Positions 44,261 to 48,725 of a DNA stretch of 64,000 nucleotides are shown piece by piece (position 1 is the stretch's first letter; the number at the start of each line of letters is the position of its first letter). The translations under genes were made by a program, and so were the position numbers. The stretch spans positions 1 through 64,000 of the forward strand of contig MEED01000015.1 in assembly GCA_001724855.1 (NCBI GenBank), given 5' to 3'. The notes beneath the pieces were generated by a model. That model did no database searches. It was given only the letters and a program-made list of their open reading frames with translations, and was not told where the DNA came from. The DNA is from Lautropia sp. SCN 69-89. Its GTDB lineage: Bacteria; Pseudomonadota; Gammaproteobacteria; Burkholderiales; Burkholderiaceae_E.

Positions 44261-46348
44261 CTACGCAGCCTCTCCGGCCACCAGCGCAACCACATTGCCA
44301 CCCCCATCCGATCCGAAAAATCGTTCCTTGAGCGCCGCGAGCTGGTCGCGCGCCTGCGCGGCCTTCTCGAACTCCAGGTTCTTCGCGTGCTCGAACATCT
44401 GGCGCTCCAGGCGCCTGATCTCGCGCGCGATCCCCTTCTCGGTCATCGTCTCGTACTGTGTCTGCCGCTGCGCTGCCTGCAACTCCTGGCGCGCCTGCTG
44501 CACGTCGTAGACGCCGTCGATCAGCTCGCGCACCTGCTTGGTGACGCCGCGCGGCACGATGCCGTGCGCGCGGTTGAACGCGATCTGCTTCGTGCGCCGC
44601 CGCTCGGTCTCGCCGATCGCCCGCCGCATCGAATCGGTGACCCGGTCGGCGTACAGGATCGCGCAGCCGTTGAGGTTGCGCGCGGCGCGCCCGATCGTCT
44701 GGATCAGGCTGCGCTCCGATCGCAGGAATCCTTCCTTGTCGGCATCGAGGATCGCCACCAGCGACACTTCCGGGAGATCGAGCCCCTCTCGCAGCAGGTT
44801 GATCCCGACCAGCACGTCGAACACGCCCAGGCGCAGGTCGCGGATGATCTCGACGCGCTCGACGGTGTCGATGTCGGAGTGCAGGTATCGCACCTTCACC
44901 GCCTGGTCGGCGAGGAAATCCGTCAGGTCTTCGGCCATCCGCTTGGTGAGGGTGGTCACCAGCACCCGCTCGGAGCGCTCGACCCGGTCGCGAATCTCAG
45001 ACAGCAGGTCGTCGACCTGGGTCGAGGCCGGACGAACGATCACCTGCGGATCGACCAGCCCGGTGGGTCGCACCACCTGTTCGACCACCTGGCCGGATTG
45101 CCGCGCCTCGTAATCGGCCGGCGTGGCCGACACGAAGATGCACTGGCGCACCTTGGATTCGAACTCCTCGAACCGCAGCGGCCGGTTGTCGAGCGCCGAC
45201 GGCAGCCGGAAGCCGTACTCGACCAGCGTCTCCTTGCGCGAGCGGTCGCCGCGGTACATGCCCCCCAGCTGGCCGATCGTGACGTGGCTCTCGTCGATGA
45301 ACATCAGCGCGTCGGCCGGCAGGTAGTCGACCAGCGTCGGCGGCGGTTCGCCGGGGCGTGCTCCCGACAGGTGGCGCGTGTAGTTCTCGATGCCCTTGCA
45401 GAAGCCGAGCTCCTGCAGCATTTCCATGTCGAAGCGGGTGCGCTGCTCGAGCCGCTGTGCCTCGACCAGCTTGCCCTGCCCGTGGAAATGCTCCAGTCGT
45501 TCGGCGAGCTCCTCGCGGATCGTGCCGAGCGCGCGCATCACCGTCTCGCGCGGCGTCACGTAGTGCGACGACGGGTAGACGGTGAAGCGCGGGATCTTCT
45601 GGCGCACGCGCCCGGTGAGCGGATCGAACAGCTGGATGCTCTCGACCTCGTCGTCGAACAGCTCGACACGCACCGCGAGCTCGGCATGCTCGGCCGGGAA
45701 GATGTCGATCGAGTCGCCGCGCACCCGGAAGGTGCCGCGCACGAACTCGGCGTCGTTGCGCTTGTACTGCATGGCCACCAGCCGCTGCAGCACCTCGCGC
45801 TGCGACAGCCGGTCTTTCGTGCGAAGCACGAGAATCATCTCGTGGTAGTCGCGCGGATTGCCGATGCCGTAGATGCAGGAGACCGTCGCGACGATCACCG
45901 TGTCGCGCCGCTCGAGCAGCGACTTGGTCGCCGACAGCCGCATCTGCTCGATGTGCTCGTTGATCGACGAGTCCTTCTCGATGTACAGGTCGCGCTGCGG
46001 AACGTAGGCCTCGGGCTGGTAGTAGTCGTAATACGAGACGAAGTACTCGACCGCGTTGTTCGGGAAGAACTCGCGCATCTCCGCGTACAGCTGCGCGGCC
46101 AGCGTCTTGTTCGGCGCCAGCACCAGCGCCGGCCGACCGATGCGGGCGATCACGTGGGCCATCGTGTAGGTCTTGCCCGAACCGGTGGCGCCCAGCAGCG
46201 TCTGGAAGCTCAGGCCGTCGCGGATGCCCTCGACCAGGCGCGCGATCGCCTCCGGCTGGTCGCCGGCCGGGGCGAACGGCTGGTGCAGCTGGAACGGGCT
46301 ACCTGGAAAGCTGGCGAACGACGGGCGTTCGAGCGCGGGATCGGTCAT
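44261..46348 (-). CDS. uvrB: Excinuclease ABC subunit B
   Basis: Nucleotide-excision-repair damage-verifying helicase, 695 aa. Walker [20 protein letters not shown] (motif I); the beta-hairpin region [38 protein letters not shown]; motif [14 protein letters not shown]; motif [20 protein letters not shown] and QTIGRAARN. The C-terminal UVR/UvrC-binding helix pair includes [28 protein letters not shown]. No LexA box was seen upstream. Confidence 0.96.
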
Positions 46349-46653: not shown

Positions 46654-47862
46654 ATGAGCCAGTCGATGTTCGCCACCGTCGAGATGGCGCCCCGTGATCC
46701 CATTCTCGGCCTGACAGAAGCTTTCAATGCTGACACACGCACCGGAAAGGTGAACCTCGGCGTCGGCGTCTATTGCGACGACAACGGGCGCATCCCGCTG
46801 CTTGCTGCGGTGCGTGAAGCCGAGCAGGCGCGCATCACCAGCGCGCCGGCACGCGGCTACCTGCCGATCGAAGGCTTCGCGGCCTACAACCAGGCGGTGC
46901 AGCAGCTGCTCTTCGGCGCCGACTCGCCGCTGCTCGCGGCCGGACGCGTGGCGACCTTCGAGGCGCTCGGCGGCACCGGCGGCCTGCGCATCGGCGCCGA
47001 TTTCCTGCGCCGGCTCTATCCGGCCGCGCAGGCCTGGATCAGCGACCCGAGCTGGGAGAACCACCGGGCGCTGTTCGAGGCCGCGGGCTACGAAGTCCGC
47101 GCCTATCCGTATTACGACCCTGCCACGCACGGGGTGAAGTTCGACGCGATGCTCGCGGCGCTGAAGTCGATGCCGGCGCACTCGGTCGTCGTGCTGCACG
47201 CCTGCTGCCACAACCCGACCGGCGTCGACCTCGACGCCGCGCAATGGGATGCGGTGGTCGCCGCGGTGCGCGAGCGCGAACTGGTCGCGTTCCTCGACAT
47301 GGCCTACCAGGGCTTCGGCGAGGGCATCGAGGCCGATGCGCTGGCGCTGCGCAAGTTCGCCGCTTCGGGTCTCGACTTCTTCGTGTCGAGCTCGTTCTCG
47401 AAGTCGTTCTCGCTGTACGGCGAGCGCGTCGGCGCGCTGTCGATCGTCACCGCCGATCGCGACGAGACCGCCCGCGTGATCAGCCAGGTCAAGCGTGTCA
47501 TCCGCACCAGCTACTCGAACCCGCCCACGCACGGCGCCGCGATCGTCGCGGCCGTGCTGTCGACGCCGGCGCTGCGCCAGCTGTGGGAGAAGGAGCTCGC
47601 CGGCATGCGCGAGCGCATCCGCGCGATGCGCGAAGACCTCGTGCGCAAGCTGCGCGAGCACGGCGTCACGGAAGATTTCTCCTTCGTCGCGCGCCAGCGC
47701 GGGATGTTCTCCTACTCGGGGCTGAACCCGGCGCAGGTCGAGCGCCTGCGCAACGAATTCGGCATCTACGCGGTCGGCACCGGGCGCATCTGCCTCGCGG
47801 CACTGAACAGCCGCAACATCGATTACGTCGCGAAAGCGATGGCGGCGGTGATCAAGGGTTAG
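46654..47862 (+). CDS. Aspartate/aromatic amino-acid aminotransferase (class I)
   Basis: 402 aa PLP enzyme of the AspC/TyrB type. MFATVEMAPRDPILGLTEAFNADTRTGKVNLGVGVY is the family N-terminus. HACCHNPTGVDLD holds the Asn/Pro motif, FLDMAYQGFGEG the Asp of the cofactor site, and SSSFSKSFSLYGERVGAL the Schiff-base lysine (about residue 250). YSGLNPAQVERLRNEFGIYAVGTGRICLAALN carries the substrate-carboxylate Arg. The AspC-versus-TyrB choice cannot be made by eye. It lies in the aminotransferase-uvrB-PTP-isc gene order common in relatives. Confidence 0.93.
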   Translation: MSQSMFATVEMAPRDPILGLTEAFNADTRTGKVNLGVGVYCDDNGRIPLLAAVREAEQARITSAPARGYLPIEGFAAYNQAVQQLLFGADSPLLAAGRVATFEALGGTGGLRIGADFLRRLYPAAQAWISDPSWENHRALFEAAGYEVRAYPYYDPATHGVKFDAMLAALKSMPAHSVVVLHACCHNPTGVDLDAAQWDAVVAAVRERELVAFLDMAYQGFGEGIEADALALRKFAASGLDFFVSSSFSKSFSLYGERVGALSIVTADRDETARVISQVKRVIRTSYSNPPTHGAAIVAAVLSTPALRQLWEKELAGMRERIRAMREDLVRKLREHGVTEDFSFVARQRGMFSYSGLNPAQVERLRNEFGIYAVGTGRICLAALNSRNIDYVAKAMAAVIKG

Positions 47863-47864
47863 CG

Positions 47865-47901
47865 TTGCCGGGTCGCCTCGTAACTGTATATATTTACAGT
47901 T
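47865..47901 (+). promoter_or_regulatory. Promoter with consensus LexA (SOS) box for the homing endonuclease
   Basis: AACTGTATATATTTACAGTT (47882-47901) contains CTGT-N8-ACAG, the core of the LexA operator of E. coli and betaproteobacteria, flanked by matching A/T. A TTGCCG (47865-47870) and TATATT (47889-47894) with an 18-base spacer place the -10 inside the operator, so LexA would block it. It lies 15 bases before the endonuclease ATG and just after the aminotransferase stop. Confidence 0.8.
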
Positions 47902-47915
47902 TCTGGGTGGCCCAC

Positions 47916-48359
47916 ATGAATACCAAGTCGATCGGCGAGTTGGGCGTCGCACGAACCTTGTCGCGCCTGCTCGAAAGCGGATACGCGGTCAGCCTACCGT
48001 TCGGCGACAACCTTCGGTACGACCTCGTCGTCGACGATGGGCAGCGACTCATGCGCGTCCAGTGCAAGACCGGTCGGCTCGACGACAAGGGTTCCATCGC
48101 GTTCCCGGTCTGCTCCTCCGCGAACCATCGCGGACTGGGACGGCGCGACTATCGCGGACACATCGACGCGTTCGGTGTCTTCTGCCCGGAAACCGACTCC
48201 GTCTACCTGGTGCCGCTCTGCGCGGTGGAGCACTGTCGGCGCGAGGCCCGCCTTCGAGTCGATCCGGCACGAAACCGACAGGTCAAGGGAACGCGCATGG
48301 CAGCGATGTTCCTCGTCGGCAGTCCTGCCGATTCGACACCGCATTCGATCTCACGCTAG
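47916..48359 (+). CDS. PD-(D/E)XK homing endonuclease, I-Ssp6803I-like, outside the intron
   Basis: 147 aa resembling the group I intron-associated PD-(D/E)XK endonucleases typified by I-Ssp6803I. The catalytic pattern is visible: Glu8 (MNTKSIGELG), Asp36 in LRYDLVV, and Gln49-x-Lys51 in RVQCKTG. The rest of the small alpha/beta core follows, with DAFGVFCPETDSVYLVPL. Predicted to nick and cleave an intronless tRNA-Asn gene to promote intron homing. It is not inside the intron: its stop (TAG 48357-48359) lies 13 bp before the split tRNA-Asn gene. GC content is visibly lower than neighbours, a sign of transfer. ATG 47916 has GGGTGG upstream and a LexA box promoter. Confidence 0.82.
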   Translation: MNTKSIGELGVARTLSRLLESGYAVSLPFGDNLRYDLVVDDGQRLMRVQCKTGRLDDKGSIAFPVCSSANHRGLGRRDYRGHIDAFGVFCPETDSVYLVPLCAVEHCRREARLRVDPARNRQVKGTRMAAMFLVGSPADSTPHSISR

Positions 48360-48362
48360 AAT
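48332..48362 (+). promoter_or_regulatory. tRNA-Asn promoter overlapping the endonuclease 3' end
   Basis: TTCGAC (48332-48337) and TAGAAT (48357-48362) with a 19-base spacer form a plausible sigma70 promoter; the tRNA begins 10 bases after the -10. The TAG stop of the endonuclease is the first half of the -10 hexamer. Read-through from the endonuclease promoter would also transcribe the tRNA. Confidence 0.55.
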
Positions 48363-48372
48363 CGCGGTTTGT

Positions 48373-48681
48373 TCCCCGATAGCTCAGTCGGTAGAGCGAC
48401 GGACTGTTAACTCAATGGCAGCCCACGCGGGAAACCGTGTGGTGAAAACATCCCTAATTCGGGGAACCCTAAGGCGCAACGCGCTAAGGCAATCCCGAGC
48501 AAGCAGGCGCACGTCCCAGACGGACGCCGGGCATGTGTAGAGACTTTACGGGGTGCGCCTACAGCGGACGATGCGCGCAAGCGGATCGTCGGCCAGGGCG
48601 AAGAGAAAGTCCAAGCCGGTTGGAAACTTCCGGGCACTTGTAATCCGCAGGTCCCTGGTTCGAGCCCAGGTCGGGGAGCCA
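48373..48681 (+). tRNA. tRNA-Asn (GUU), split by a group I intron
   Basis: Exon 1 (48373-48407) runs from the acceptor strand TCCCCGA to U35 of the anticodon. Exon 2 (48641-48681) starts with U36 and includes the T-arm (CCTGG-TTCGAGC-CCAGG), the acceptor TCGGGGA, discriminator G and encoded CCA. Joined, they give a standard 76-nt tRNA-Asn with anticodon GUU in loop CUGUUAA. Acceptor, D, anticodon and T stems all pair. The gene cannot make functional tRNA without splicing. No other tRNA-Asn is in the window. Confidence 0.95.
48408..48640 (+). other. Group I intron (Azoarcus/IC3-like) in the tRNA-Asn anticodon
   Basis: 233-nt self-splicing intron between anticodon bases U35 and U36. P1: exon GGACUGU pairs with guide GCAGCCC (48418-48424), with the required U-G at the 5' splice site. 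P2: 48423-48430 with 48435-48442 capped by GAAA. P4: TCGGG (48459-48463) with CCCGA (48494-48498). P7: ACTTT (48543-48547) with AAAGT (48606-48610). P8 and P9 hairpins follow, and the intron ends in G (48640). The AATTCGGGGAACCCTAAG and GTGTAGAGACTTTACGGG stretches match the core of the Azoarcus tRNA-Ile intron. No protein is encoded inside. Confidence 0.93.
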
Positions 48682-48689
48682 AATCCGAA

Positions 48690-48725
48690 GGCCGGTGCGC
48701 GTACAGCGCGCCGGCCTCTTTTTTT
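48690..48725 (+). terminator. Rho-independent terminator after tRNA-Asn
   Basis: An 11-bp stem (GGCCGGTGCGC at 48690-48700 with 48706-48716, one G-T pair), a five-base loop and eight T within TCTTTTTTTTT follow the tRNA CCA by eight bases. Confidence 0.9.

Follow-up and report, generated by a model that had tools for sequence, protein, structure and literature searches.

The window (the whole 64-kb stretch of DNA analysed here) carries a homing-endonuclease-like gene of the PDDEXK_5 family immediately upstream of a tRNA-Asn gene that is interrupted by a group I intron, and the operator before the nuclease gene matches the host LexA motif at its promoter (Table 1). Control of the gene by LexA is well supported computationally, with LexA expected to bind the site. 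We consider it probable that the locus encodes a free-standing, LexA-repressed, tRNA-Asn-directed homing endonuclease whose partner is the ORF-less intron occupying that site.

Table 1. Features of the nuclease–tRNA-Asn locus, in positions of the window.
Feature	Coordinates	Strand	Detected by
Aminotransferase-like gene (name by reading), upstream neighbour	46654..47862	+	ORF
Predicted sigma-70 promoter, -35 TTGCCG (47865-47870), -10 TATATT (47889-47894)	47865..47894	+	promoter scan
Predicted LexA operator CTGTATATATTTACAG	47884..47899	+	pattern and host-matrix scan
PDDEXK_5 (PF11645) homing-endonuclease-like gene, 147 aa	47916..48359	+	Pfam, phmmer
Predicted tRNA-Asn promoter TCGACA-18-TAGAAT, overlapping the nuclease gene end and stop codon	48333..48362	+	promoter scan
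tRNA-Asn(GUU) 5' exon, last base = anticodon base 35	48373..48407	+	
ORF-less group I intron, 233 nt, final base G	48408..48640	+	
tRNA-Asn(GUU) 3' exon, CCA encoded	48641..48681	+	
Terminator-like hairpin, 3' of tRNA	48689..48717	+	

The operator, CTGTATATATTTACAG, is the sole exact CTGT-N8-ACAG palindrome in the window, and the promoter scan places the -10 element of the nuclease gene inside it. According to the accessible text of PMC3323433, LexA recognises CTGT-N8-ACAG in most beta- and gammaproteobacteria, and NCBI places Zeimonas in Betaproteobacteria. On its own, the bare pattern is weak evidence, because 0.26 exact occurrences are expected by chance per window and at least one is present in 23 of 100 shuffled windows; it also carries little weight genome-wide, since 11 exact boxes in the own genome compare with 17 matches to the reversed control pattern, that is, no enrichment. 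A host SOS matrix of 20 positions is more telling: built from 13 boxes of the host genus (five from lexA, six from recA, one from dnaE2 and one from a PA0069 radical SAM gene, weighted as four genes) with the nuclease box excluded, it assigns the nuclease box 29.7 bits against 4.2 bits for the runner-up site in the 64 kb, a margin of 25 bits over all other window sites. None of 639,810 positions of the Markov-resampled window reaches the score of the nuclease box.

The AT-rich exact boxes of the own genome precede lexA (CTGTATTTTTATACAG), dnaE2, which encodes an error-prone DNA polymerase (CTGTATGTACATACAG), a PA0069-family radical SAM gene (CTGTATGGATCTACAG) and the nuclease gene. Within the genus, which is represented in public records by Zeimonas arvi and by metagenome assemblies labelled Burkholderiaceae or Lautropia (several of the compared genomes are metagenome assemblies), CTGTAT-N4-ATACAG precedes lexA in all five genomes in which lexA was found, out of seven searched, and the recA box CTGATTGTTTATACAG is present in six of six loci, two partial recA pieces of G013 having been left out. 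The host matrix finds no SOS-like box at a uvrB-like gene near the locus (44261-46348, name by reading), although in E. coli uvrB belongs to the SOS genes.

The predicted nuclease, for which GTG at 47907 is an alternative start, matches PF11645 with E=4.3e-36 (124.4 bits versus a curated cut-off of 26.1), and NCBIfam returned no family for it. Its closest solved relative by phmmer is PDB 2ost_A (E=5.7e-8), an entry named 'Putative endonuclease' that we take to be I-Ssp6803I. The protein contains D36 and Q49-C-K51, a D...QxK pattern which presumably comprises the catalytic residues of PDDEXK_5, or I-Ssp6803I-like, nucleases. Both D36 and Q49 are invariant in all eight aligned sequences, and K51 is replaced by R in Zeimonas arvi (QCR versus QCK of the window), so that the Zeimonas arvi copy, altered at the presumed catalytic lysine, may be inactive; the reading frame of this copy (L024) continues into the tRNA. 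The first-pass annotation had postulated a LexA operator covering the -10 of a homing-endonuclease-like PD-(D/E)XK gene, and both the operator and the family assignment are borne out by these scores.

The tRNA-Asn(GUU) gene (48373-48681) starts 13 nt after the nuclease stop, with no terminator predicted in between, and the group I intron that it contains is real. The intron is inserted between bases 35 and 36 of the anticodon, with T as the base before it and G as its last base; the joined exons are recognised as tRNA-Asn(gtt), and the intron-split gene was missed by the ARAGORN run on the window. Its match to RF00028 has 40.1 bits, less than the gathering score of 50, at E=1.7e-8 for a search of 1.2 kb, and across 13 aligned loci 12 of the 84 predicted pairs show a compensatory change in one sequence or more (11 in the intron and one in the tRNA) in a consensus predicted without pseudoknots, which does not represent the full group I fold. 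That the endonuclease might be intron-encoded was considered and ruled out by the coordinates: the gene is free-standing and located 5' of the tRNA, and no ORF is present in the intron. Of the first-pass description of the gene as a group I homing endonuclease, the family assignment holds, but the gene lies outside the intron; the intron-split tRNA-Asn gene downstream goes unmentioned there. No second, intronless tRNA-Asn was found in the own genome, which is 95.6% complete. The aminotransferase-like gene is also located upstream of tRNA-Asn in the compared same-genus loci, with or without the intron.

Homologues of the nuclease were identified in eight of 200 relatives, namely, five intact copies from the same genus (the own genome, G000; G004, locus L023; G006, L022; Zeimonas arvi, G008, L024; and G016, L025), two same-genus remnants (G013 and G014, the latter locus L026) and G135; a search of 74 genomes of the family returned the seven same-genus homologues and none further. 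All five intact genes, the window counted, are preceded by the box, four of them by an exact match (CTGTATATATTTACAG in two copies, CTGTATATACACACAG and CTGTTGATATGTACAG) and one by a match with a single mismatch (CTGTATGCATTTTCAG), and in each case the box is the top-scoring site of the locus (29.7, 25.0, 32.6, 29.9 and 19.3 bits). The first-pass annotation had also considered that the box might be absent from all homologous loci; this did not prove to be the case. The box lies directly before the gene within flanks so diverged as to be barely alignable, and its arms are kept while the core varies, as expected of a LexA site. The intact nuclease genes are under purifying selection (dN/dS 0.09-0.20 at dS 0.9-2.4 in nine of ten pairs, dS being saturated in the tenth), and the box has been kept even though synonymous sites are near saturation and the four other proteins differ from the window protein by 17-29%. 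The order box, nuclease, intron-bearing tRNA-Asn is common to all five loci, and the five genes form one clade in the nuclease tree (100/97), the deeper branches of which are poorly resolved. In the four relatives an in-frame ATG is located 1 or 4 nt behind the box, which makes it likely that the nuclease message is leaderless or nearly so; in the window, the start codon is 7 nt (GTG) or 16 nt (ATG) behind the box.

None of the five decayed or scarred copies of the genus (G013, G014, G005, G007 and G009) has the box. The full-length intron is present in 13 of the 200 relatives: the own genome, 11 of the 17 further genomes of the genus, and G062, which belongs to another genus. Three of the 18 same-genus genomes (G001, G002 and G003) have an intronless tRNA-Asn, and no tRNA-Asn match was found in same-genus G010, G011 and G015. 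Among the 13 intron carriers, the nuclease is intact in five, a remnant in two and reduced to a promoter scar in three; in the other three (G012, G017 and G062) no nuclease trace was found, indicating that the intron can exist, and in G062 has perhaps spread, without the nuclease. G062 (L120) carries the same tRNA-Asn intron, 83% identical, in another neighbourhood and without the nuclease; comparison of its exons by eye for co-conversion gave a mosaic. The tRNA promoter element CGATTCGACA is kept at a fixed place in all five decayed or scarred loci, four of them exact (G005 and G007 included) and one, G009, with one mismatch. The same element is retained by the intronless G003, which suggests that an ancestor of G003 had the nuclease. 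In the tree of the aminotransferase segment, intronless and intron-bearing genomes alternate, with G001 beside G016, and G003 beside G007 and G008; the intron tree is weakly supported, too weakly for dating transfers, and the two trees do not prove recent transfer. Overall, the pattern looks like a gain-and-decay cycle, although loss alone could explain much of it.

Outside the genus, no SOS-like box was detected in any of 55 loci (G135, six loci of other orders of the class and 48 viral loci). Conservation of the box is therefore confined to one genus, as far as examined, and SOS control is not general to the nuclease family; the best reading appears to be that a free-standing endonuclease came under LexA in the host genus. 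Weak partial PF11645 matches in G296, G434, G453, G076, G597 and G501 were left out of this count; neither a tRNA nor, at E<=0.01, a group I intron was detected in their loci. G135, which belongs to another family of the order, has a 46% identical gene 5' of a tRNA-Asn gene whose group I intron, 254 nt long and scoring 64 bits against RF00028, is a different one but occupies the same insertion position. No box is present upstream of the G135 nuclease, although the lexA promoter of this genome contains CTGTAATTTCATTCAG, of the type CTGT-N8-TCAG, so that G135 probably uses a similar motif. In the other orders, the closest approach to the box is a match to seven of eight arm letters in L107, about 130 nt upstream. 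The host matrix scores a site at locus position 115 of L106 with 18.7 bits and finds weaker ones in other loci, all away from gene starts.

The viral set comprises 48 loci (L144-L191), near-duplicates among them. PF11645-type genes are dispersed through the tRNA clusters of these contigs, next to tRNAs of several isotypes. In 14 loci the gene overlaps a tRNA-Asn(gtt) gene of the same strand or is at most 16 nt away from it, and in 17 it overlaps a tRNA of other or undetermined isotype or is at most 47 nt away; for the further 17, with which the fragment L189, 34 nt before a tRNA-Asn, is counted, no same-strand tRNA is that close. In several cases the viral reading frame covers roughly the first 10-40 nt of the tRNA; in L148 the frame concerned is longer than the homologous part. 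Members of the PF11645 nuclease family commonly abut a tRNA gene, on the 5' side in most cases, and the viral members possibly each target the neighbouring tRNA isotype. No SOS-like box was found within 160 nt upstream of the viral genes (one locus has CTG-N10-CAG at -156, and L171 extends only 6 nt upstream), and the anticodon stems of viral tRNA-Asn genes beside the nuclease show no sign of self-protection that is absent from other viral tRNA-Asn genes. The nuclease tree includes 30 of the viral loci, 17 near-duplicates, fragments or broken frames as well as L185 having been left out. Homologues occur in 44 named phage records, all at less than 60% identity, and no plasmid homologue was found in PLSDB at E<=1e-3.

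The arrangement of a free-standing nuclease with an ORF-less intron, found in the five genus loci and in G135, lends itself to the following model, in which LexA binding, the cleavage target, cutting, homing and the advantage of SOS timing are the parts that we infer. As long as the cell is undamaged, LexA would sit on the -10 element and keep the nuclease silent; with the site reaching nearly to the start codon in relatives, repression should be tight. Upon activation of RecA by damage, by entry of single-stranded DNA or by the cut itself, LexA would be cleaved and the nuclease made, which would then cut the anticodon-arm DNA of an intronless tRNA-Asn allele, the likely target because different introns share the insertion site in two families. 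Recombination with the donor copy would import the intron and the nuclease gene together, since about 50-490 bp separate the gene from the insertion point, a distance that co-conversion can span. With the nuclease target split by the intron, the carrier would be protected, and it should be safe given that its own genome has no further, uninterrupted copy of the gene. A more elaborate version, possible but doubtful, is a damage-licensed homing circuit that amplifies itself. Where the recipient lacks the intron, the first cut in its tRNA-Asn gene would activate RecA, leading to cleavage of LexA and production of more nuclease until the allele is converted, whereupon the intron would remove the target, the break signal would stop and LexA would silence the gene again. 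If so, the intron and LexA would jointly restrict homing to cells in which target and repair coexist, and turn it off upon success.

Several other explanations were weighed against this model. LexA control could be real and the nuclease could serve the host, as an SOS-induced interference against the intronless tRNA-Asn genes of phages or plasmids, with the intron immunising the host. The presence of tRNA-Asn genes and related nucleases on viral contigs, the exclusively intron-bearing tRNA-Asn of the own genome and the purifying selection on the nuclease are all consistent with such a role; however, we regard it as unlikely, because the repeated loss of the nuclease (five of ten intron carriers with traces are decayed or scarred) better fits a selfish cycle, and the bacterial anticodon stem is unlike those observed in viral tRNA-Asn genes. 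It is very unlikely that the palindrome is instead an operator through which the endonuclease regulates its own gene. There is a precedent in I-TevI, which represses its own promoter according to the accessible text of PMC3943268, and ACTGT is common to the box and the presumed target, but the same type of palindrome stands before lexA and dnaE2 of the own genome, and its recA variant is also found in the nuclease-free relatives G002 and G003. SOS induction of tRNA-Asn by read-through from the box, with the nuclease as a passenger, would accord with the position of the only predicted terminator, after the tRNA rather than before it, but is highly improbable, as a separate promoter is predicted for the tRNA, and the box is missing from all five loci with a lost or truncated nuclease, which keep the promoter element. 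Finally, a chance AT-rich promoter palindrome or an inert relic, an option dropped only after the matrix score and conservation tests had been obtained, is likewise highly improbable in view of these tests and of the purifying selection, notwithstanding the frequency of the bare pattern in shuffled windows and its lack of genome-wide enrichment.

To our knowledge, how homing endonucleases avoid cutting chromosomes when repair is unavailable has been little explored. Among regulated homing endonucleases, the accessible part of the review PMC3943268 provides the example of I-TevI autorepression, and the term SOS is absent from the accessible text of this review and of PMC3984707. In line with the first-pass annotation, which knew of no described LexA-controlled group I homing endonuclease, a full-text literature search judged by titles and the beginnings of abstracts, with subscription journals mostly outside its coverage, returned no SOS-controlled homing endonuclease; nor did any title among the matches listed concern a group I intron in bacterial tRNA-Asn. 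What appears to be new is the predicted LexA regulation of a known arrangement, a free-standing homing endonuclease with an ORF-less intron, in one genus as far as seen. With a conserved host LexA operator before its nuclease gene, a selfish element that depends on DNA breaks would be coupled to the repair state of the host, as integron integrases are through LexA, suggesting that the element awaits active DNA repair before moving; such an operator would also offer a simple, testable system. In addition, the locus points to a path leading from tRNA-adjacent phage nucleases to the tRNA introns of bacteria.

The locus resembles several known systems, each in part. I-Ssp6803I is the intron-encoded nuclease of the cyanobacterial tRNA-fMet group I intron; it is of the same family by Pfam and phmmer and likewise tied to a tRNA group I intron, but here the gene is outside the intron, is associated with another tRNA and has its own promoter with a LexA box. 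In the collaborative (trans) homing of phages, as described in the accessible text of PMC3984707, a free-standing homing endonuclease and an ORF-less group I intron share the same site. Common to both is a free-standing nuclease encoded close to an ORF-less intron that occupies the presumed cut site, whereas our case, with cleavage as its predicted step, concerns a bacterial chromosome, a tRNA gene, a PD-(D/E)XK nuclease and an SOS operator. SegB also has a free-standing nuclease gene near tRNA genes, but is phage-borne and belongs to a nuclease family other than PF11645, and we know of no LexA box associated with it; the accessible part of PMC13096335 presents it as a phage homing endonuclease linked to tRNA genes. 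LexA gating of a recombination enzyme of a mobile element is seen in integron integrases, which are SOS-controlled according to the accessible text of PMC3323433; those enzymes are site-specific recombinases, in contrast to a double-strand-break endonuclease that would rely on host repair.

A further comparison is offered by tRNA-Arg-like introns in other orders of the class, which combine the same nuclease family with an intron in the anticodon loop of a tRNA; there, however, the gene is inside the intron and has no CTG-N10-CAG within 160 nt upstream. Intron-internal PF11645 genes in tRNA-Arg-like genes were observed in L106, L107, L108 and L114. Both tRNA-Arg-like exons are visible in L106 and L108, and the intron motifs of L107 and of a broken copy in G791 are similar to those of these two loci. 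RF00028 did not report the introns of L106, L107, L108 and L114 at E<=0.01 (L111 stood in for L114), so that their assignment to group I follows from core motifs as we read them. No intron was detected next to the PF11645 gene of G768. In G546 (L110), a free-standing PF11645 gene is located immediately 5' of an intronless tRNA-Arg(tct), within a Pro-Arg-His-Lys tRNA cluster like those in which relatives hold the PF11645 gene inside the intron.
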